In this document: positions 47,842-57,673 of the stretch, piece by piece
How the letters are laid out: every line of letters begins with the position of its first letter
Numbering within the stretch: position 1 is the stretch's first letter
DNA from: Fodinibius roseus
GTDB lineage: Bacteria > Bacteroidota > Rhodothermia > Balneolales > Balneolaceae
Direction: 5' to 3'
Assembly: GCF_900129315.1 (NCBI RefSeq)
Contig: NZ_FQUS01000001.1
Coordinates: 372,001 to 436,000, forward strand
Length of the DNA stretch: 64,000 nucleotides
The notes under the pieces: generated by a model
What the model was told of the DNA's origin: nothing
The model's database searches: none
What the model saw: only the letters and a program-made list of their open reading frames with translations
Made by a program: the position numbers and the translations under genes

Positions 47842-49575
47842 ATGGTTTTTGAGCAAAAGGTTTTGGAGCATCTTCGTGTAATTTATGACCGAGACACTGC
47901 AGAAACACTTGTCGACCGTATCGATGAATTGTTCTCGGATTACGGGTTCAGAGTTCAGGAGAAACAGACTAACTATCCCTCCTGGAGCGAACAGGACGCG
48001 ATATTAATCGCTTATGGAGATGTCATTAATCAAAATGGACGGGCCAACCATAAAATCCGGTTCCTGGATAATTTTCTCAGCCGGTATCTGAATGATGCTG
48101 TAAATTCGGTTCATATTTTGCCTTTTTTCCCGAGTTCTTCGGACGAGGGCTTTTCGGTCATAGACTATAAGCAGGTTCGGGACGATCTGGGAGAATGGTC
48201 TGACGTGGAGCATATGGCCGGTAAATACCGCCTGATGGCGGATTTGGTCATCAACCATACCTCACGCTTTAGTGAATGGTTTGAAAATTACCAGATGCGC
48301 AAGGAGCCCGGTAAGGATTATTTTATCGAGATTGATCCGTCCGTGAACCTCTCCAAGGTTATTCGTCCCCGCAGCTCCCCCTTATATACAGCCGTGGAAA
48401 CCAGCAATGGTCTTCGGCACGTGTGGACCACCTTCAGTGATGATCAAATTGATCTGGATTTTTCTAATCCGGATGTGCTGCTTGAATTTATCGATATATT
48501 TCTTTTCTATCTTTCGAAAGGGATCAGTCTGATTCGGCTGGATGCCATCGCGTACTTGTGGAAAGAGATAGGAACGAAGTCTATCCATCTGGAAAAGACA
48601 CATCATGTCGTCAAGCTTTTCCGGGATATCGTGGATCATATTGATATTGATGCTATCCTTATTACAGAAACCAACGTGCCGTTCGAGGAAAATGTGAGCT
48701 ATTTCGGAGAAGGCGATGAGGCCCATATGATTTACCAGTTCAGCCTGCCGCCCCTGCTGCTGCATGCTCTTCTGACGGAAAATTCCCGGTACCTTACCGA
48801 ATGGGCCAGCGAACTGCCCGAGCCGCCGAAAGGGTGTACCTATTTCAACTTCACGGCCTCCCATGATGGTATCGGGGTTCGTCCACTGGAAGGCCTGGTA
48901 CCGGAGGATGAGTTCGACTACCTTATGGAAAGCACCAAGGAGCGTGGGGGATTTGTATCCTACAAAACCAATTCCGACGGTACCCAAAGTCCCTATGAGT
49001 TGAATATCACCTACTTCGATGCTTTTTCGGAACCGGGACAGGAGGAGACGGAACTTCAGATGAAGCGCTACCTGAATTCCCAGATCATTATGCTGAGTCT
49101 GCAGGGCGTACCCGGCATCTATTTTCAGAATCTGGTGGCTTCGAAAAACTATGTTGCCGGCGTTTTGAAAAAGGGCGAAAAACGTTCGATCAACCGGAAA
49201 AAATGGAGCTACGAGGAGCTGACAAAAAGGGTAGAGGATGAGTCCGATCCAGCTCATATTGTATTGAATTTTTATAAAAAGGCACTGAATATCCGAAAGA
49301 AGCATCCCGCCTTTAACCCCGAAGCCGAGCAGAAAGTATTGGATTTAGGCAGTGAGCTGTTTGCTTTTACCCGGACGGCCGTCCAGCAGGAAGAAGAAAT
49401 CCTGGTGATAAGCAACATGACCGCCCACGACGTAAGGTTGCCCGATGCCGACCTTTCCATGTTTTTTGAATCAGAAGAACGTAAAGAAGTAACAGACCTG
49501 TTAACGGATAAGCCGCAGTCTGTTTCGCCTGAATTAATGTTGGATCCTTTTGAAACGCTTTGGCTGTCCCGTTAG
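47842..49575 (+). CDS. GH13_18 phosphorylase, probably glucosylglycerate or sucrose phosphorylase
   Basis: This 577-residue enzyme has the sucrose-phosphorylase-type barrel: HILPFFPSSSDEGFSVIDY, LMADLVINHTSRFSEWF, the nucleophile in LIRLDAIAYLWKE, the acid/base in ITETNVPFEENVSYFG and TASHDGIGVRPLEG. GH13_18 includes sucrose phosphorylase, sucrose-6-phosphate phosphorylase, glucosylglycerol phosphorylase and glucosylglycerate phosphorylase. The convergent neighbours encode glucosyl-3-phosphoglycerate synthase and a HAD protein, so glucosylglycerate phosphorylase (release of glucose 1-phosphate plus glycerate) is the best guess. It is cytoplasmic. Confidence 0.88.
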   Translation: MVFEQKVLEHLRVIYDRDTAETLVDRIDELFSDYGFRVQEKQTNYPSWSEQDAILIAYGDVINQNGRANHKIRFLDNFLSRYLNDAVNSVHILPFFPSSSDEGFSVIDYKQVRDDLGEWSDVEHMAGKYRLMADLVINHTSRFSEWFENYQMRKEPGKDYFIEIDPSVNLSKVIRPRSSPLYTAVETSNGLRHVWTTFSDDQIDLDFSNPDVLLEFIDIFLFYLSKGISLIRLDAIAYLWKEIGTKSIHLEKTHHVVKLFRDIVDHIDIDAILITETNVPFEENVSYFGEGDEAHMIYQFSLPPLLLHALLTENSRYLTEWASELPEPPKGCTYFNFTASHDGIGVRPLEGLVPEDEFDYLMESTKERGGFVSYKTNSDGTQSPYELNITYFDAFSEPGQEETELQMKRYLNSQIIMLSLQGVPGIYFQNLVASKNYVAGVLKKGEKRSINRKKWSYEELTKRVEDESDPAHIVLNFYKKALNIRKKHPAFNPEAEQKVLDLGSELFAFTRTAVQQEEEILVISNMTAHDVRLPDADLSMFFESEERKEVTDLLTDKPQSVSPELMLDPFETLWLSR

Positions 49576-49584
49576 AAGCCGGTG

Positions 49585-50487
49585 CTAAGTCGACAGGCAA
49601 TCATTGATCTGGCTGAGATCGTCCACAATAAGATCGGGACGATACCGGGTCTTTTTCAGATCGCCCGGCTGGTGACGAATGGATCGCTGGTCTCCCACAT
49701 ACAGGGCGGTCCGCAATCCCAGTTCTTTGGCCGGTTCTATATCTTTGCGGATATCATTGCCCACGTATAATACTTCCCGGGGTTCCAGCTTCTCCCTTTT
49801 GGCTGCTTCTGTAAATAGGCTGTAGAGCTCGGTTGAAGGTTTTTTTCGTCCGGTTTCGTAGGACCAGATCAACAATTCCTTGTTAAATCCAAAGGAGGCC
49901 GGCGACTGATTGAGCAAAGCTTCGAAAGCAATAGGGGTATAGTACTGGGAATTGGAAATGATGCCGAGTTCCAGTCCGCGATTTTTTAATGATCCCAGGA
50001 CGGCAGAAAGGTTGGGAACAGGCCAGATATCATTGATACGAAATTCAAACTCAATGCCGAACTGAATGGCCTTACTACGACTTGTGTCGCCACGTATATC
50101 ACCTGATTCCATGAGTTCGTTCAGGACATCCAGCCAGACGGCAACAATATTGGGTTCCGGATATTCGATCCCCTTATCCCGTGCCCTGCGGACGTGATTT
50201 TCGACGGTTTGCTCAAAAATGCTGATGCCCCTGGGGCCGACATCCGGCCTGGATATGGAAAATCCGCTGTCTTCCAGCGCTTCGACAAACCAGCCGGGGC
50301 TCTGCTGCTGTTGCTGCTCATCAACCCCGATATCTCCCACTGCCGAGATAAACATAGTCCCGTAAAAATCGTAGGCCACACAGCGAATCCCCCTGATCTT
50401 CTGCAGCCGGGTTGCGTGTCCCGTTGAAACAGGCTCGAGCGGGTGAGTGAGCGTACGTATGCGTTGGATCAGCTGCTCTTTATTCAT
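49585..50487 (-). CDS. HAD-superfamily hydrolase, candidate glucosyl-3-phosphoglycerate phosphatase
   Basis: This 300-residue HAD protein has motif I AYDFYGTMF, motif II LGIISNSQYYT, and motif III/IV VLYVGNDIRKDIEPAKELG. The cap domain lies between about residues 60 and 165. The second Asp of motif I is Tyr (DxYGT), as in L-2-haloacid dehalogenases and some uncharacterised HADs, so phosphatase activity is not certain. It begins five bases after gpgS, which makes dephosphorylation of glucosyl-3-phosphoglycerate the natural hypothesis. Confidence 0.82.
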   Translation of the reverse strand: MNKEQLIQRIRTLTHPLEPVSTGHATRLQKIRGIRCVAYDFYGTMFISAVGDIGVDEQQQQQSPGWFVEALEDSGFSISRPDVGPRGISIFEQTVENHVRRARDKGIEYPEPNIVAVWLDVLNELMESGDIRGDTSRSKAIQFGIEFEFRINDIWPVPNLSAVLGSLKNRGLELGIISNSQYYTPIAFEALLNQSPASFGFNKELLIWSYETGRKKPSTELYSLFTEAAKREKLEPREVLYVGNDIRKDIEPAKELGLRTALYVGDQRSIRHQPGDLKKTRYRPDLIVDDLSQINDCLST

Positions 50488-50492
50488 CTTTG

Positions 50493-51491
50493 TTAATCCA
50501 TCGATCGATTGAATTTTTTGCGATATTCATCAATTTCAATCATAGGAGGACGCTCTTCTTCAATGATTTCAAGTTCAACTTGCTCATAGGTGTTGTCTTT
50601 TGCCTGCGTTTGCCGCAAGATTGTGTTAAAATCAGAAATATCCTGAATGATATCGAGTGCTTTAGCCCGCTTGATGAATGTCTGCAGGATACCAAAAGCC
50701 ATCTTGCCCAAAGCCCGCGTAGGCTTATTTTCATGCACGCGCTGGTCCAGATCGGTTTGAGCAAAGGCATCGAGGCCATATTTGGTATATACGTCAATAA
50801 GATGAGAGGTTTCAACCCCGTAGCCAATAGGAAAGTTTATATTCTCTAATACTTCCCGCCGAACAGCATACTCTCCCGAAAGCGGTTGGATGATTCCGGT
50901 AAGTTCCGGAAAATACAGCGAGAAGAGGGGACGTATCAGGATTTCTGTCACGCGTCCCCCGCCCGAAGGTCGTACCGAACCCGATACGGCAAGGGGACGA
51001 TCATAAAACGCTTTTACATATTTGACTTCCTCGCGATAAATCAGCGGGGCCACCAGTCCGTATACAAAACGGGGATGGATATTACTGATATCGGCATCGA
51101 CATAGACAATGATGTCGCCTTCCAGCTGGTGTATCGCCTTCCAAAGGTTTTCACCTTTGCCTTTCTTCTTTTCCAGTCCGGGCAGGATATCATCAGCGAG
51201 ATATACATCCGCTCCGAAGTTTGCTGCTATTTCACGGGTCTGATCGTCCGATCCCGAGTCAATCACTGCGATTTCATCGAGCAACGGATACCGGTCAACC
51301 AGTTCCGACTTAAAGATAATAACTTCTTTTCCGATCGTTTTTTCTTCATTGAGCGTGGGGAGACACAAAGAGATGGTCAGCCCATTTTTTTCTTTTTTTT
51401 CAACCAGTTTTTTCAAGTCCCAAAACTGTGAGTGGTGATAGGTGTTGTCGTCGATCCAATTTTTAAGCTTCTTCACAATAACCTCCATCAA
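50493..51491 (-). CDS. gpgS: Glucosyl-3-phosphoglycerate synthase (GT81)
   Basis: This 332-residue GT-A glycosyltransferase moves glucose from a nucleotide sugar to 3-phosphoglycerate, the first step of glucosylglycerate synthesis. Family blocks are SLCLPTLNEEKTIGKEV, VIDSGSDDQTREIA, KGKGENLWKAI, YVDADISNIHPRFVYGL and GYGVETSHLIDVY. Length and layout are typical. It overlaps the M20-like gene upstream by up to 29 bases. Glucosylglycerate is a compatible solute under salt or nitrogen stress, which fits a halophile. Confidence 0.92.
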   Translation of the reverse strand: MMEVIVKKLKNWIDDNTYHHSQFWDLKKLVEKKEKNGLTISLCLPTLNEEKTIGKEVIIFKSELVDRYPLLDEIAVIDSGSDDQTREIAANFGADVYLADDILPGLEKKKGKGENLWKAIHQLEGDIIVYVDADISNIHPRFVYGLVAPLIYREEVKYVKAFYDRPLAVSGSVRPSGGGRVTEILIRPLFSLYFPELTGIIQPLSGEYAVRREVLENINFPIGYGVETSHLIDVYTKYGLDAFAQTDLDQRVHENKPTRALGKMAFGILQTFIKRAKALDIIQDISDFNTILRQTQAKDNTYEQVELEIIEEERPPMIEIDEYRKKFNRSMD

Positions 51492-52788: not shown

Positions 52789-52820
52789 TGTAACCATCAG
52801 CAATCATAATCGTCTTATAA
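52789..52820 (+). promoter_or_regulatory. ECF-type promoter of the sigma/anti-sigma operon
   Basis: TGTAACC (52789-52795) and CGTCTTATAA (52811-52820) are separated by exactly 15 bases. The same two boxes with the same spacing occur before the DUF4382 gene at 56758. It sits 90 bases before the ECF sigma gene, so it probably serves autoregulation. Confidence 0.75.
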
Positions 52821-52910: not shown

Positions 52911-53471
52911 ATGAACAATTCGGAAGAAGAATTTCAGATAGTAGAAGCCGTCCTGAACGGGCAGAAGGATCGATATCGGGAATTAGTCGATCGGCATGCT
53001 CCATTGGTTTTTAATATCGTGAATCAATTTGTGAGTCGGAGGGAGGAAGCAGAAGAACTTGCTCAGGAAATATTTGTTAAAACCTATGAGAGGTTGTCTT
53101 CCTTTAACAAGCAATCGAAATTTTCTTCCTGGCTGTACCGTATTGCCTATAATCATTGCCGGGATTACGCAAAGAATATACGGCGAAAGAACGAATCCTT
53201 TGACGAAGTGAGAGAACAGGATCTCAAAAATAACATGGGAGGATATAGCATGCCGGATGCGGAACTGGAAAAAGCTGAATGGATTGCGCTGTTGAAGAAG
53301 GGATTAAAAGAGATTAACACCGATTATGCGGAAGCATTCTTAATGAAGTATGAAGCAGGAATGACGTACCAGGCCATGGCTCAACGGCTTGAGGCTTCCA
53401 AAGGAGCGCTGAAGGTGCGCGTATATAGAGCCAAAAAGGAATTAAAAGCTTTTATCGAACAAAACAGCTGA
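52911..53471 (+). CDS. ECF RNA polymerase sigma factor
   Basis: This 186-residue sigma factor has region 2 (YRELVDRHAPLVFNIVNQFV, then EEAEELAQEIFVKTYERLSS and SSWLYRIAYNHCRDYAKN) and region 4 (FLMKYEAGMTYQAMAQRLEA, then GALKVRVYRAKKELKAF). It differs clearly from the FecI-type sigma at 19497. The stop codon is three bases before the anti-sigma ATG. An ECF-type promoter lies just upstream and recurs before the DUF4382 gene. Confidence 0.94.
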   Translation: MNNSEEEFQIVEAVLNGQKDRYRELVDRHAPLVFNIVNQFVSRREEAEELAQEIFVKTYERLSSFNKQSKFSSWLYRIAYNHCRDYAKNIRRKNESFDEVREQDLKNNMGGYSMPDAELEKAEWIALLKKGLKEINTDYAEAFLMKYEAGMTYQAMAQRLEASKGALKVRVYRAKKELKAFIEQNS

Positions 53472-53474
53472 AAT

Positions 53475-54206
53475 ATGAAGAACAGGGAAGAACTATTCCA
53501 ACAATATGTCGACGGAGAGCTGTCGCCCCAGGAGGAGAAGCAGGCTCTTCATAAAATTGCAGAAGATGATGAGTTGCGTTCGATGCTTCGTTTTGAGCAT
53601 CAACTAAATGATACGGCATTCGTTGCTTTGCTTCAGTCGGAGGCCGACCCCGTGCCGGAGGGATTTTCAGAACGGGTGATGCAGGAAGTGTACGGGATGG
53701 GGGAATCATCCGATTCTTTGGGTGTTACCGGGCGTCTGCAGGCCTGGTATCGCAGCTTGTGGATTCCGAAACAGATACAATGGCGGCCTGCTTACGCTTT
53801 AGCTATCGCTGTTATACTGCTATTCTCGCTTGGCTATCCGCTGTATATGGTTCAGGATATGGGAAATGAACGTCCTTTTGCGAGTTCCGAAAGTGCTGGT
53901 TTGAATGATTCTGTCCGGCAGATCTCTTCCGGAGATGGCGGGGAAGAGGTCATTCTTCGCTTTTTTTATATCGATGAAGAAGCACAATCGGTATCCGTGG
54001 CGGGTGATTTCAATGACTGGGAGCCCGTTGAGCTGACCCGTCAGGAGGTAAACGGCGAAGAGGTCTGGACCGGCTTCGTATCGGTGAAGCGCGGCGAGCA
54101 CCATTACATGTTTGTGAAGAACGGGGAACAGTGGGTTACCGACCCGCTGGCTCCCGTGCACCGTGATGATGGTTTTGGCAATAAAAATGCTGTGATCTAT
54201 TTATGA
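53475..54206 (+). CDS. Anti-sigma factor with extracytoplasmic glycogen-binding (CBM48/AMPK-type) domain
   Basis: This 243-residue protein has a cytoplasmic helical anti-sigma part (about 1-95, YVDGELSPQEEKQALHKIAE) and one membrane helix (about 103-122, PAYALAIAVILLFSLGYPLY). The outer domain (about 155-243) is of the isoamylase/AMPK glycogen-binding type: VSVAGDFNDWEPVELTR, then EHHYMFVKNGEQWVTDPLAP. There is no zinc-type HxxxCxxC motif. Its outer part may sense an alpha-glucan or a partner protein. It overlaps the next start by four bases. Confidence 0.86.
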   Translation: MKNREELFQQYVDGELSPQEEKQALHKIAEDDELRSMLRFEHQLNDTAFVALLQSEADPVPEGFSERVMQEVYGMGESSDSLGVTGRLQAWYRSLWIPKQIQWRPAYALAIAVILLFSLGYPLYMVQDMGNERPFASSESAGLNDSVRQISSGDGGEEVILRFFYIDEEAQSVSVAGDFNDWEPVELTRQEVNGEEVWTGFVSVKRGEHHYMFVKNGEQWVTDPLAPVHRDDGFGNKNAVIYL

Positions 54207-55462
54207 AGCAACTCCCGTTCATCATATGCCTGCTCTTTTTGACAACACCATCCGGATTCGGCCAACATGGACAAACGGTGTTGTCTCTCGATTCACGGGT
54301 GGGATACTCGACGAACAGTTATTTAAATCCATTTTTGGGAGAATGGGACAGTACGGTGGAAACAGGATATAATTTTACGTCTCTCTTAGGCCGGTCGTTC
54401 TGGTACGGCAGCGGCCATTCTTTTTCACTGTCGGGAGGTGTGATCTATGAACCTTTTTTTGACAAACAGCTTTCCACCTGGAAGGGAGGAATAGGACTTG
54501 TGGACTATAACTACCGACTTACGAACAATGTTAGTATCGGAGTGGAGGGAGGGAGTAGTTATATGCAAAGCCAGTATAACCGAACATTCGCCTGGGTACA
54601 ACCCAAATTCACCTGGTTCCTGACGCCCTTTACGCTTCTTCGAACTAAACTGGGTTCCAACTTCAGAAGATATAGGAACTATGGAGAAGTGGATGAGCTA
54701 TCCGACCGGCTGGACCTCTACAGCCTGGAATTCGAAACATGGCCTACGTATCGCTGGAGGCTTACTGCCGGAATTTACGGGGGAATGGATACGTTGCCCG
54801 ATATTCAAGAAGGATTTACCACCCAGACTTCAGCAGGCTATTATTTTCGAAATGGAGCTTCGATAACCCTGACCGGTTATTTGCAGCAATACCAGTTTCA
54901 ACAAGCGATAACCGAAAGCAATGGAGGCACAAATGCGATTCCTCCTGGCGGGGGAGGATCTGCAACGGGGACTGCTGATCATACAAATCGCATTCTGCGT
55001 GTGGGATTGGAAAGCGCCCTGCCTGTGAGTAAACGTCTGGCCCTTTTTGCTGATATCGGGGCAATGCGCTTTTTAGACAATGCTGTGGAAGAGTCCACCA
55101 GCGATTTTAACGTTTCCGGAGGCATACGCTTCAGCATTGAGCCAAAATTAAACAGCGGCGCTCCTGCTATTACCCCCGAGTGGGAGAAAGAAGGGGAACA
55201 TCAGGAGATTCATATATCATTTTCGGGCGAAGGACGCCTGTATCTCGTTGGTAGTTTTAATAACTGGAACAAAGAGGGGATACCTTTAACAGAGCAGTCT
55301 GAGAATACATTCACCACCCAACTCTCACTGGAGATGGGGGCTTATGAATACAAAGTACTGAGAGTGCGGGGAGATTCAGAAGAGTGGCTTGAATTTTCCA
55401 ATGAAGTGTATACGGTCAGTGACGGGTTCGACAATGAAAATGCAATGATTTTAGTTGAATAA
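54203..55462 (+). CDS. Outer-membrane-type protein with C-terminal glycogen-binding domain
   Basis: This 419-residue protein has a signal peptide (FIICLLFLTTPSGFGQ) and a beta-barrel-like region (about 25-310, GYSTNSYLNPFLGEWDSTVE, FTSLLGRSFWYGSGHSFSLS). A C-terminal domain (about 330-419) is of the same AMPK/CBM48 type as in the anti-sigma factor: RLYLVGSFNNWNKEGIPLTE, then EYKVLRVRGDSEEWLEF. It overlaps the anti-sigma gene by four bases. The shared domain in two coupled genes suggests a common ligand or a direct interaction across the periplasm. Confidence 0.78.
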   Translation: MKQLPFIICLLFLTTPSGFGQHGQTVLSLDSRVGYSTNSYLNPFLGEWDSTVETGYNFTSLLGRSFWYGSGHSFSLSGGVIYEPFFDKQLSTWKGGIGLVDYNYRLTNNVSIGVEGGSSYMQSQYNRTFAWVQPKFTWFLTPFTLLRTKLGSNFRRYRNYGEVDELSDRLDLYSLEFETWPTYRWRLTAGIYGGMDTLPDIQEGFTTQTSAGYYFRNGASITLTGYLQQYQFQQAITESNGGTNAIPPGGGGSATGTADHTNRILRVGLESALPVSKRLALFADIGAMRFLDNAVEESTSDFNVSGGIRFSIEPKLNSGAPAITPEWEKEGEHQEIHISFSGEGRLYLVGSFNNWNKEGIPLTEQSENTFTTQLSLEMGAYEYKVLRVRGDSEEWLEFSNEVYTVSDGFDNENAMILVE

Positions 55463-55477
55463 TCATACCAAAAAATT

Positions 55478-56419
55478 ATGAATGTTTTAGAACATCTTTT
55501 ACTTGCAGGACTTATGGGCGGACTCTTGTTGTTGACGACCGGTTCGGTCCAGGCGCAAGGCACAAAGGTTTCGGCCCTGATAGAAAAGGCTGAGGCTGCA
55601 GGGATCGAGCAATCGGCGGTAACGGAGCTCCAGAACAGGGCCCAAAGCCAGGGCATGAGTAACCAGCAGCTTCAGCAGATTCTGGAATCGGCTCTGGATT
55701 TGTCTGACCAAAACCTGCCGGGACAAGTTGCCATTGATAAAGCCCTCGAGGGACTCTCGAAGGGGGTCCCTGCAGATCGTATCATTCCCGCCGTTCTTAA
55801 TATAGCAGAAGGAATGAGGCAAGCCGCTGAAATAGTAGACCCGTGGATGAAGCGGCCGGAAGTACAGCAGATGATGGGACGTCCGGGGCGATCGATGTCG
55901 CAAAACAACTACCGGGGGCAAATGATCAGGGCAGCGTCTAAATCATTCGTTCAAAAAATTCCTCCCGGTCAAGTCAAACGTATTTTTAATGAGATCGGAA
56001 ATAAAGAGATCCTCTCCGAGCGTTCGGCTGCTGATCTGCTTACAGCGATCAATGTCCTGCCGGACTTGCCTACCACCTCTACTCAGCCTGAAACTTCTGC
56101 TTCCCTCATTGTCAGGGCGCTCCGGGGCGGTTTTGATGCCGATAAGCTACAGCAGCTTCCATCAGCGATGAAGATGGGTCAGCAGCGAAGCCAGCTGCCT
56201 GCGGCCTCGGTGATCAAAGGCGCGGCTCAGCAAATGGAACAAGGTACTCCGGCCAAACAGGTTTTACAGAATCTTTTCAATGGCAACATTGGGGGCGGTC
56301 CGCCGGGAAACCTCCCCCCGGGACTGGAGCGTCGTCCCGATCGCGGTAATAATCCCGGCAATAATAATCGCGGTGGCAATAACAACCGTGGTGGTAATAA
56401 CGGTCCCGGCGGTAGGTAA
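55478..56419 (+). CDS. Secreted helical protein with Gly/Asn/Arg-rich tail
   Basis: This 313-residue protein has a signal peptide (LLLAGLMGGLLLLTTGSVQA). The body is helical, with three or four related segments of the type LIEKAEAAGIEQSAVTELQN, and ends in a low-complexity tail of GNN/RGG repeats (about 275-313). It follows the barrel gene by 15 bases and completes the ECF operon. I do not recognise the family. The tail and repeated helical units suggest a binding or surface-associated protein. Confidence 0.68.
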   Translation: MNVLEHLLLAGLMGGLLLLTTGSVQAQGTKVSALIEKAEAAGIEQSAVTELQNRAQSQGMSNQQLQQILESALDLSDQNLPGQVAIDKALEGLSKGVPADRIIPAVLNIAEGMRQAAEIVDPWMKRPEVQQMMGRPGRSMSQNNYRGQMIRAASKSFVQKIPPGQVKRIFNEIGNKEILSERSAADLLTAINVLPDLPTTSTQPETSASLIVRALRGGFDADKLQQLPSAMKMGQQRSQLPAASVIKGAAQQMEQGTPAKQVLQNLFNGNIGGGPPGNLPPGLERRPDRGNNPGNNNRGGNNNRGGNNGPGGR

Positions 56420-56757: not shown

Positions 56758-56789
56758 TGTAACCTTTTGGGATTTCGGTCGTCTTATAA
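56758..56789 (+). promoter_or_regulatory. ECF-type promoter of the DUF4382 lipoprotein gene
   Basis: TGTAACC and CGTCTTATAA are separated by exactly 15 bases, with box sequences and spacing identical to the promoter at 52789; the spacer sequence itself differs. It lies 45 bases before the start codon. Confidence 0.75.
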
Positions 56790-56833: not shown

Positions 56834-57673
56834 ATGATATTACAAAACAAAATATTATCTGTCCCCCTGACACTCTTGATTGGAATTTCAGTGCTTGTCG
56901 TCGGTTGTGAGACCGATGACAGCGGACTGGGAGCAGATGGTGGTATGGGAACAATGACCGTTCAAATGACAGATGCCCCCATAGATTCCGCGGATGCAGT
57001 GAATGTCTTCATTGAAAGAGTGGAAGTCAATAATGCCGAAGATGAGGAAGGGTGGACGGTCTTAAATGAGCCTCAACAAAGCTATAACTTGCTGGAACTT
57101 GTGAATGGTGCTACAGAAGTAATCGGCAGCAGTGAGCTTGAACCGGGAGTTTACAACCAAATTCGACTCATTTTAAGCGAAGGCGGACATAGTGTGGAAG
57201 TTAACGGGGAAGTGCATGATATGAAGGTCCCCAGTGGTCCCCAGACCGGAATCAAGCTTAACATTAATGCAGAGATAGAACCTGATATTGAATATGTGCT
57301 GCTGCTTGATTTTGACGCCAGTCGCTCTGTCGTTGCAGCGGGCCCGCCGGGCAATGCTGTTAAATATCTTTTAAAACCGGTTGTTACTGCAAAAGAGGAA
57401 GCGATTACCGGGAATATTGAAGGTACCGCCGATCCCGCTGAATCTCGTCCCGTTGTCTATGCCATTTCGGGTACCGATACGCTTGCTTCCACGATTGCCG
57501 ATACCACAAGCGGTGATTTCAGAATTATTGGCCTGGAGGAGGGGAGTTATGAGGTAGCCCTGCATTCCAGGAATGAGGCCTATCAATCCGTAGTGGAAGA
57601 AGACGTGAGTGTGAGTGTTGGCGCGACGGCTGAGATAGGGACGATTGAACTGCCTCCGGCTACGGAGGAGTAA
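56834..57673 (+). CDS. DUF4382 lipoprotein with carboxypeptidase-regulatory-like domain
   Basis: This 279-residue lipoprotein has the lipobox ISVLVVGCETD. The DUF4382 domain (about 38-180) shows MTVQMTDAPIDSADAVNVFI, YNLLELVNGATEVIGSSELE and GVYNQIRLILSEGG. A C-terminal Ig-like regulatory domain follows (about 195-275, RIIGLEEGSYEVALHS). DUF4382 proteins are surface or periplasmic proteins of unknown function. The ECF promoter ahead of it makes it a likely target of the sigma factor at 52911. A terminator follows. Confidence 0.86.
   Translation: MILQNKILSVPLTLLIGISVLVVGCETDDSGLGADGGMGTMTVQMTDAPIDSADAVNVFIERVEVNNAEDEEGWTVLNEPQQSYNLLELVNGATEVIGSSELEPGVYNQIRLILSEGGHSVEVNGEVHDMKVPSGPQTGIKLNINAEIEPDIEYVLLLDFDASRSVVAAGPPGNAVKYLLKPVVTAKEEAITGNIEGTADPAESRPVVYAISGTDTLASTIADTTSGDFRIIGLEEGSYEVALHSRNEAYQSVVEEDVSVSVGATAEIGTIELPPATEE

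Follow-up and report, generated by a model that had tools for sequence, protein, structure and literature searches.

Can an outer-membrane protein and an anti-sigma factor communicate through matching carbohydrate-binding-type domains? The question is raised by a locus of the halophile Fodinibius roseus (Bacteroidota, Balneolales), located in the window that we analyzed, i.e., a stretch of 64,000 nucleotides of contig NZ_FQUS01000001.1 (positions 372,001 to 436,000). There, the gene of an extracytoplasmic function (ECF) sigma factor is followed by those of an anti-sigma factor, an outer-membrane barrel protein, and a secreted protein (open reading frame 4, ORF4), and both the anti-sigma factor and the barrel protein end in a carbohydrate-binding module (CBM) of the AMPK/CBM48 type. 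A preliminary description, made from the sequence, had remarked on the shared domain and suggested a signaling path from barrel to anti-sigma factor. We propose, with a probability of around 0.6, that the locus encodes an autoregulated envelope relay in which two periplasmic CBM-type domains would set the stability of the anti-sigma factor, with DUF4382 lipoproteins as the output. The proteins of the locus were scanned with Pfam (curated cut-offs) and NCBIfam, and the Pfam family PF16561 (AMPK1_CBM) was matched across the whole 5.1-Mb genome. The features are listed below, where all coordinates are positions within the window and all features lie on the + strand.

52790..52818, +, ECF-type promoter GTAAC-N16-CGTC-NNAY before the sigma gene, conserved at nearly all Balneolales loci (predicted autoregulation)
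52911..53471, +, ECF sigma factor (Sigma70_r2 2.3e-17, Sigma70_r4_2 4.4e-10, TIGR02937 9e-29)
53475..54206, +, single-pass anti-sigma factor with C-terminal AMPK/CBM48-type domain (Pfam, NCBIfam, model, hydropathy, conservation)
53475..53633, +, its N-terminal helical zinc-less domain, residues 1-53 (model helices 4-12, 18-30, and 32-53; weak anti-sigma models)
53796..53852, +, its transmembrane helix, residues 108-126 (hydropathy maximum 2.16; model helix 105-129)
53943..54203, +, its predicted periplasmic AMPK1_CBM/CBM48 domain, residues 157-243 (Pfam, PDB profile search, superposition)
54203..55462, +, outer-membrane 14-stranded barrel with C-terminal AMPK/CBM48-type domain (Pfam, model), whose start overlaps the anti-sigma stop by 4 bp
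54266..55138, +, the 14-strand beta-barrel, residues 22-312 (structure model; CymA Z 20.9, OmpG Z ~19)
55178..55459, +, the barrel protein's predicted periplasmic AMPK1_CBM domain, residues 326-419 (Pfam, model, PDB profile search, contact residues)
55478..56419, +, ORF4, a secreted helical protein with a Gly/Asn/Arg-rich tail, a module member conserved also in distant phyla
56759..56787, +, second copy of the GTAAC-N16-CGTC promoter, before the DUF4382 lipoprotein gene (promoter pattern search)
56834..57673, +, DUF4382 lipoprotein, predicted regulon member (PF14321 2.7e-36; lipobox VVGC; own promoter)

At the sequence level, the sigma, anti-sigma, barrel, and ORF4 genes form one tightly packed operon, and their positions agree with those in the preliminary description. 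The sigma factor has 186 residues and contains sigma-70 regions 2 and 4 only, both over the Pfam cut-off. The profile of ECF sigma factors has at least 33 matches in this genome (G000). The second protein has the layout of a class I membrane anti-sigma factor, with a helical N-terminal domain, one transmembrane helix, and a gene placed directly after that of the sigma factor. We assign its identity from this layout and position, together with weak matches of its N-terminal domain to anti-sigma models (NF052375, E 7e-6) and weak zf-HC2 matches in its distant relatives.

The same domain type is indeed present on both proteins. The anti-sigma factor matches AMPK1_CBM (E 1.3e-7) and CBM_48 (E 1.2e-6) and the barrel protein matches AMPK1_CBM (E 7.5e-8), all above the curated cut-offs, and these two proteins account for the only two PF16561 matches of the genome. 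The motifs highlighted in the preliminary description were found in the anti-sigma factor (GDFNDWEP, residues 177-184) and in the barrel protein (GSFNNWNKEG, residues 350-359). In profile searches of the PDB, the CBMs of AMPK-beta ranked first for both families. The structure predictions that had been suggested as a check gave concordant results: the CBM in the AlphaFold model of the anti-sigma factor superposes on that of AMPK-beta2 (4yee), its top structural match (Z 9.0, 2.2 A, 80 residues), and the model of the barrel protein (pLDDT, the predicted local distance difference test, of 82) has a start resembling a signal peptide, 14 strands, and then the CBM. The term "barrel-like" was thus apt, and the closest structural matches, CymA and OmpG, are each 14-stranded. 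Since the number of strands is even and the N terminus of the barrel is periplasmic, the CBM that follows the last strand should also be periplasmic. The CBMs of the two proteins are therefore predicted to lie on the same, periplasmic, side, which corrects the earlier picture of a surface glycan sensor. One relative (L036:3756-5005, G012) has a barrel gene that is split inside the part encoding the CBM, and the two resulting frames share 4 bp. This may be a frameshift, a sequencing error, or a natural split.

The domains may bind glycans, judging from the residues they retain. The cyclodextrin-contact residues of AMPK-beta1, which we take to be W100, K126, W133, and N150, are all kept in the barrel domain and three of the four are kept in the anti-sigma domain. 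Across barrel CBMs, the conserved positions are W100 in 46/46, K or R126 in 43/46, W133 in 44/46, and N150 in 45/46; the corresponding values in the anti-sigma CBMs are 67/67 for W100, 60/67 for W133, and 67/67 for N150. The CBM is the most conserved part of the anti-sigma factor, with 27 of its 34 invariant columns. Such invariance is unusual for a sensor and points to a ligand or partner that stays constant. In a tree of 134 CBMs, the anti-sigma and barrel CBMs of Balneolales formed two separate and well-supported groups, and hence are not recent copies of each other, while the deep forks are unsure because only 95 columns were available. Other AMPK1_CBM proteins of Balneolales are stand-alone proteins of ~99 residues and alpha-amylases of ~790 residues (L163, L164-L166, L069).

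The survey of gene order proposed in the preliminary description revealed near-perfect linkage. Among 129 Balneolales genomes, the anti-sigma family was found in 42, the barrel family in 42, both in 41, and neither in 86 (Fisher p 2e-31); the two genomes with one of the two genes (G070 and G077) have it at a contig end. Every Balneolales locus with enough flanking sequence shows the gene order sigma, anti-sigma, barrel, and ORF4, and nearly all of these loci have a DUF4382 gene downstream. The overlap between the anti-sigma gene and the barrel gene measures exactly 4 bp in 28 of 35 loci. The two outcomes regarded at the outset as damaging to the proposal, namely domains devoid of carbohydrate-binding residues and a gene pair that fails to co-occur elsewhere, are thus not what we observed. 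The module is patchy, being missing in a genome of the same genus (G016) and in about two thirds of Balneolales, as if it were gained or lost as a unit. Among its named carriers are Fodinibius salsisoli, Fodinibius halophilus, and metagenome-assembled genomes (MAGs) of Gracilimonas.

Modules related to this one are found in about ten phyla besides Bacteroidota. Full-length or nearly full-length relatives of the anti-sigma factor were found in other families of the class and in Rokubacteria, Nitrospirota, Myxococcota, Acidobacteria, desulfobacterial lineages, Eisenbacteria, Gemmatimonadota, Elusimicrobia, and Deferribacterota MAGs, with the caveat that MAG records may carry binning errors. The comparison made does not clearly support a single origin of the sigma factors across these phyla. 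Genes for barrels with a CBM follow the anti-sigma gene in loci of Myxococcales, Eisenbacteria, and Gemmatimonadota and in relatives within the class. A small protein of 120-145 residues, encoded just upstream of the sigma factor, carries the second CBM in Nitrospirota and in some of the deltaproteobacterial loci; its N terminus is lipoprotein-like, with GC at a plausible lipobox (the strict motif search was positive in 2 of 6). The Nitrospirota loci also have a separate barrel-like gene after ORF4, and from this arrangement we read the small CBM protein and the separate barrel as a split form of the fused barrel-CBM protein.

The promoter provides the link to the output. A GTAAC-N16-CGTC-NNAY site lies upstream of nearly every Balneolales sigma gene of the module, and similar sites with small variations precede the sigma genes in several other phyla. 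Within the genus, sites were found before the sigma gene and before DUF4382 genes, both in the operon and elsewhere, and in three genomes the same promoter precedes genes of MbnP-like lipoproteins, whose Pfam match is below the cut-off (L206 = G000:C30:219147, L207, L203). The strict pattern occurs 105 times in the 43 module-bearing genomes vs 16 times in the 86 genomes without the module, where the reversed-pattern controls gave 47 and 55 hits, respectively. At least one strict site was found in 34/43 module-bearing genomes vs 10/86 of the others, with a Fisher p of 3e-14 that overstates independence because the genomes with the module share ancestry and their sigma sites enter the count by construction. 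Several of the genomes with sites and no module are incomplete. The looser pattern in the genus is not enriched by raw count (41 hits vs 61 for the reversed control), and signal is separated from noise only by the context of the sites and by the stricter pattern across Balneolales. Dispersed strict sites precede DUF4382 lipoproteins in four genomes (G034, G058, G069, G127), as well as other lipoproteins and, in G058, a paralogue of ORF4; some strict sites elsewhere are located before response regulators, pilin-like genes, or uncharacterized genes, or before no gene. From these in silico patterns we predict that the promoter is the own class of this ECF sigma factor, with an autoregulated operon and a regulon of DUF4382 lipoproteins. 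One good promoter-like site (L205:1474, G000:C40:7973) has no long reading frame within 250 bp and may belong to a small RNA or be a chance match.

A path from barrel to anti-sigma factor would be the most economical reading of these data. The two CBM-type domains would face each other in the periplasm, where that of the barrel would contact that of the anti-sigma factor, or would compete with it or be bridged to it by a ligand common to both (probably an alpha-glucan or an alpha-glucoside). The state of the contact or ligand would then determine whether envelope proteases cut the anti-sigma factor, whose loss would free the sigma factor to transcribe its own operon and the DUF4382 surface lipoproteins. 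A broader version, in which a barrel or a lipoprotein and the anti-sigma factor use matching CBM48 domains to recognize one shared periplasmic ligand of the alpha-glucan type and thus control DUF4382 surface lipoproteins in a widespread class of systems, can be put forward only tentatively. A possible lead to an alpha-glucoside ligand is a gene set of the glucosylglycerate type (GH13_18 phosphorylase-like protein, HAD phosphatase, and GpgS; positions 47842-51491), which adjoins an M20 peptidase gene and the module. The set lies beside the module in about ten relatives too, upstream or downstream (two arrangements), and may also represent plain synteny.

Several observations weigh against the relay. 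The position of K126 is occupied by Met in 51 of the 67 anti-sigma domains, which could mean that glycan binding was changed or lost. The two sets of CBMs are separate old lineages, and therefore the shared domain type alone is no proof of contact. The N-terminal anti-sigma domain itself is recognized weakly by profiles, the confidence of the anti-sigma model is modest (pLDDT 73, predicted template modeling score, pTM, 0.36), and the topology is predicted. The examined stretch of the Desulfovibrio-type, Rokubacteria, and Acidobacteria loci has no second CBM.

Some of these points would also fit CBM-type domains that have no part in glycan binding and serve as beta-sandwich interaction domains, so that the signal would pass purely by contact between barrel and anti-sigma factor. 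The Met at the position of Lys126, in a ligand loop that is otherwise nearly invariant (DDGFGNKNA), suits a fixed protein partner, as does the presence of the domain on two co-encoded partners, and CBM48-like folds are known in non-starch proteins (an enterobactin esterase is among the matches). However, the two aromatic residues of the platform are nearly always kept, as is the Asn, and the barrel domain keeps the Lys as well. We consider this alternative possible but rather doubtful. It is unlikely that the CBM of the anti-sigma factor alone binds a glycan, with the barrel acting as a carbohydrate channel that lets the glycan in. RsgI anti-sigma factors of Clostridium thermocellum do sense different substrates (PMC12203970), in some cases via CBMs, the best structural matches of the barrel are the 14-stranded porins CymA and OmpG, and the glucosylglycerate genes adjoin the module in part of the relatives; yet the 14-strand geometry alone could yield these matches, neither the operon nor the promoter targets that were inspected include a glycan-degrading enzyme, and a channel would need no CBM of its own. 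A general response to outer-membrane stress, of the sigma-E type, where the barrel is a client and its misfolding is sensed, would account for a regulon with an outer-membrane protein and lipoproteins, since unfolded outer-membrane proteins are the best-known signal of RpoE (PMC8103513). It is quite improbable: the inspected sites precede mostly DUF4382 lipoproteins and no chaperones, proteases, or assembly factors, the module is patchy even within the genus, and the Pfam scan found no RseA-type domain. That two CBM48 domains became adjacent by chance or neutral recruitment is hardly credible, even if CBM48 occurs in other Balneolales proteins (the alpha-amylases and stand-alone proteins above), given the near-perfect linkage, the 4-bp gene overlap, and the recurrence of a second CBM in several phyla.

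The proposed relay was compared with known systems. The preliminary description considered it a new type of envelope signaling, but precedents exist in the glycan-sensing RsgI anti-sigma factors and in TonB cell-surface signaling, which already links outer-membrane proteins to anti-sigma factors (PMC11637429), and we therefore regard the module as a variant of known signaling rather than a new kind. As in TonB signaling (FoxA/FoxR/FoxI, FecA/FecR/FecI), an ECF sigma factor and its single-pass anti-sigma factor are combined with an outer-membrane protein, and a periplasmic domain on the barrel is placed to meet the C-terminal domain of the anti-sigma factor. In contrast, the barrel of the module is 14-stranded and lacks a TonB receptor, plug, or signaling domain, the Pfam scan found no FecR, and the signaling domain is C-terminal, of CBM48 type, and on both partners. 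RsgI of cellulolytic clostridia is likewise a membrane anti-sigma factor whose sensor is of carbohydrate-binding type and lies outside the membrane, but it pairs with sigma-I, uses other sensor families, comes from Gram-positive bacteria, and has no outer-membrane partner; in the module, the partner is an ECF sigma factor and the RsgI N-terminal domain was absent from the Pfam scan of the anti-sigma factor. RpoE/RseA resembles the module in that a single-pass anti-sigma factor controls an ECF sigma factor and the input is related to the outer membrane, but the Pfam scan detected neither the N- nor the C-terminal domain of RseA, and the predicted regulon comprises DUF4382 lipoproteins instead of folding and assembly factors. 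Membership in these three systems was thus rejected, as their defining domains were not found. With the glycogen-binding domain of AMPK-beta, the module shares fold, family, and most cyclodextrin-contact residues; its copies differ in being predicted periplasmic, on an anti-sigma factor and a barrel, and in the change of Lys126 to Met in most anti-sigma domains.

No description of anti-sigma factors of the CBM48/AMPK type was found in the literature searched, which did not include the main paper on ECF re-classification. If the relay is confirmed, it would provide a route other than TonB for an outer-membrane protein to control an ECF sigma factor, a sensory role for bacterial AMPK/CBM48 domains beyond glycogen metabolism, and a first regulatory handle on the DUF4382 lipoproteins, a family of unknown function that is scarcely mentioned in the literature searched. 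With its promoter, partner genes, and residues predicted, the model lends itself to direct tests, and the module is present in Fodinibius species that are available in culture. Searches by sequence found no solved relative of the DUF4382 and MbnP-like lipoproteins. No Pfam or NCBIfam family was found for ORF4, and its sole significant PDB match, a designed helical repeat protein covering 32 residues, was taken as an artefact. ORF4 is present in most loci of the other phyla.

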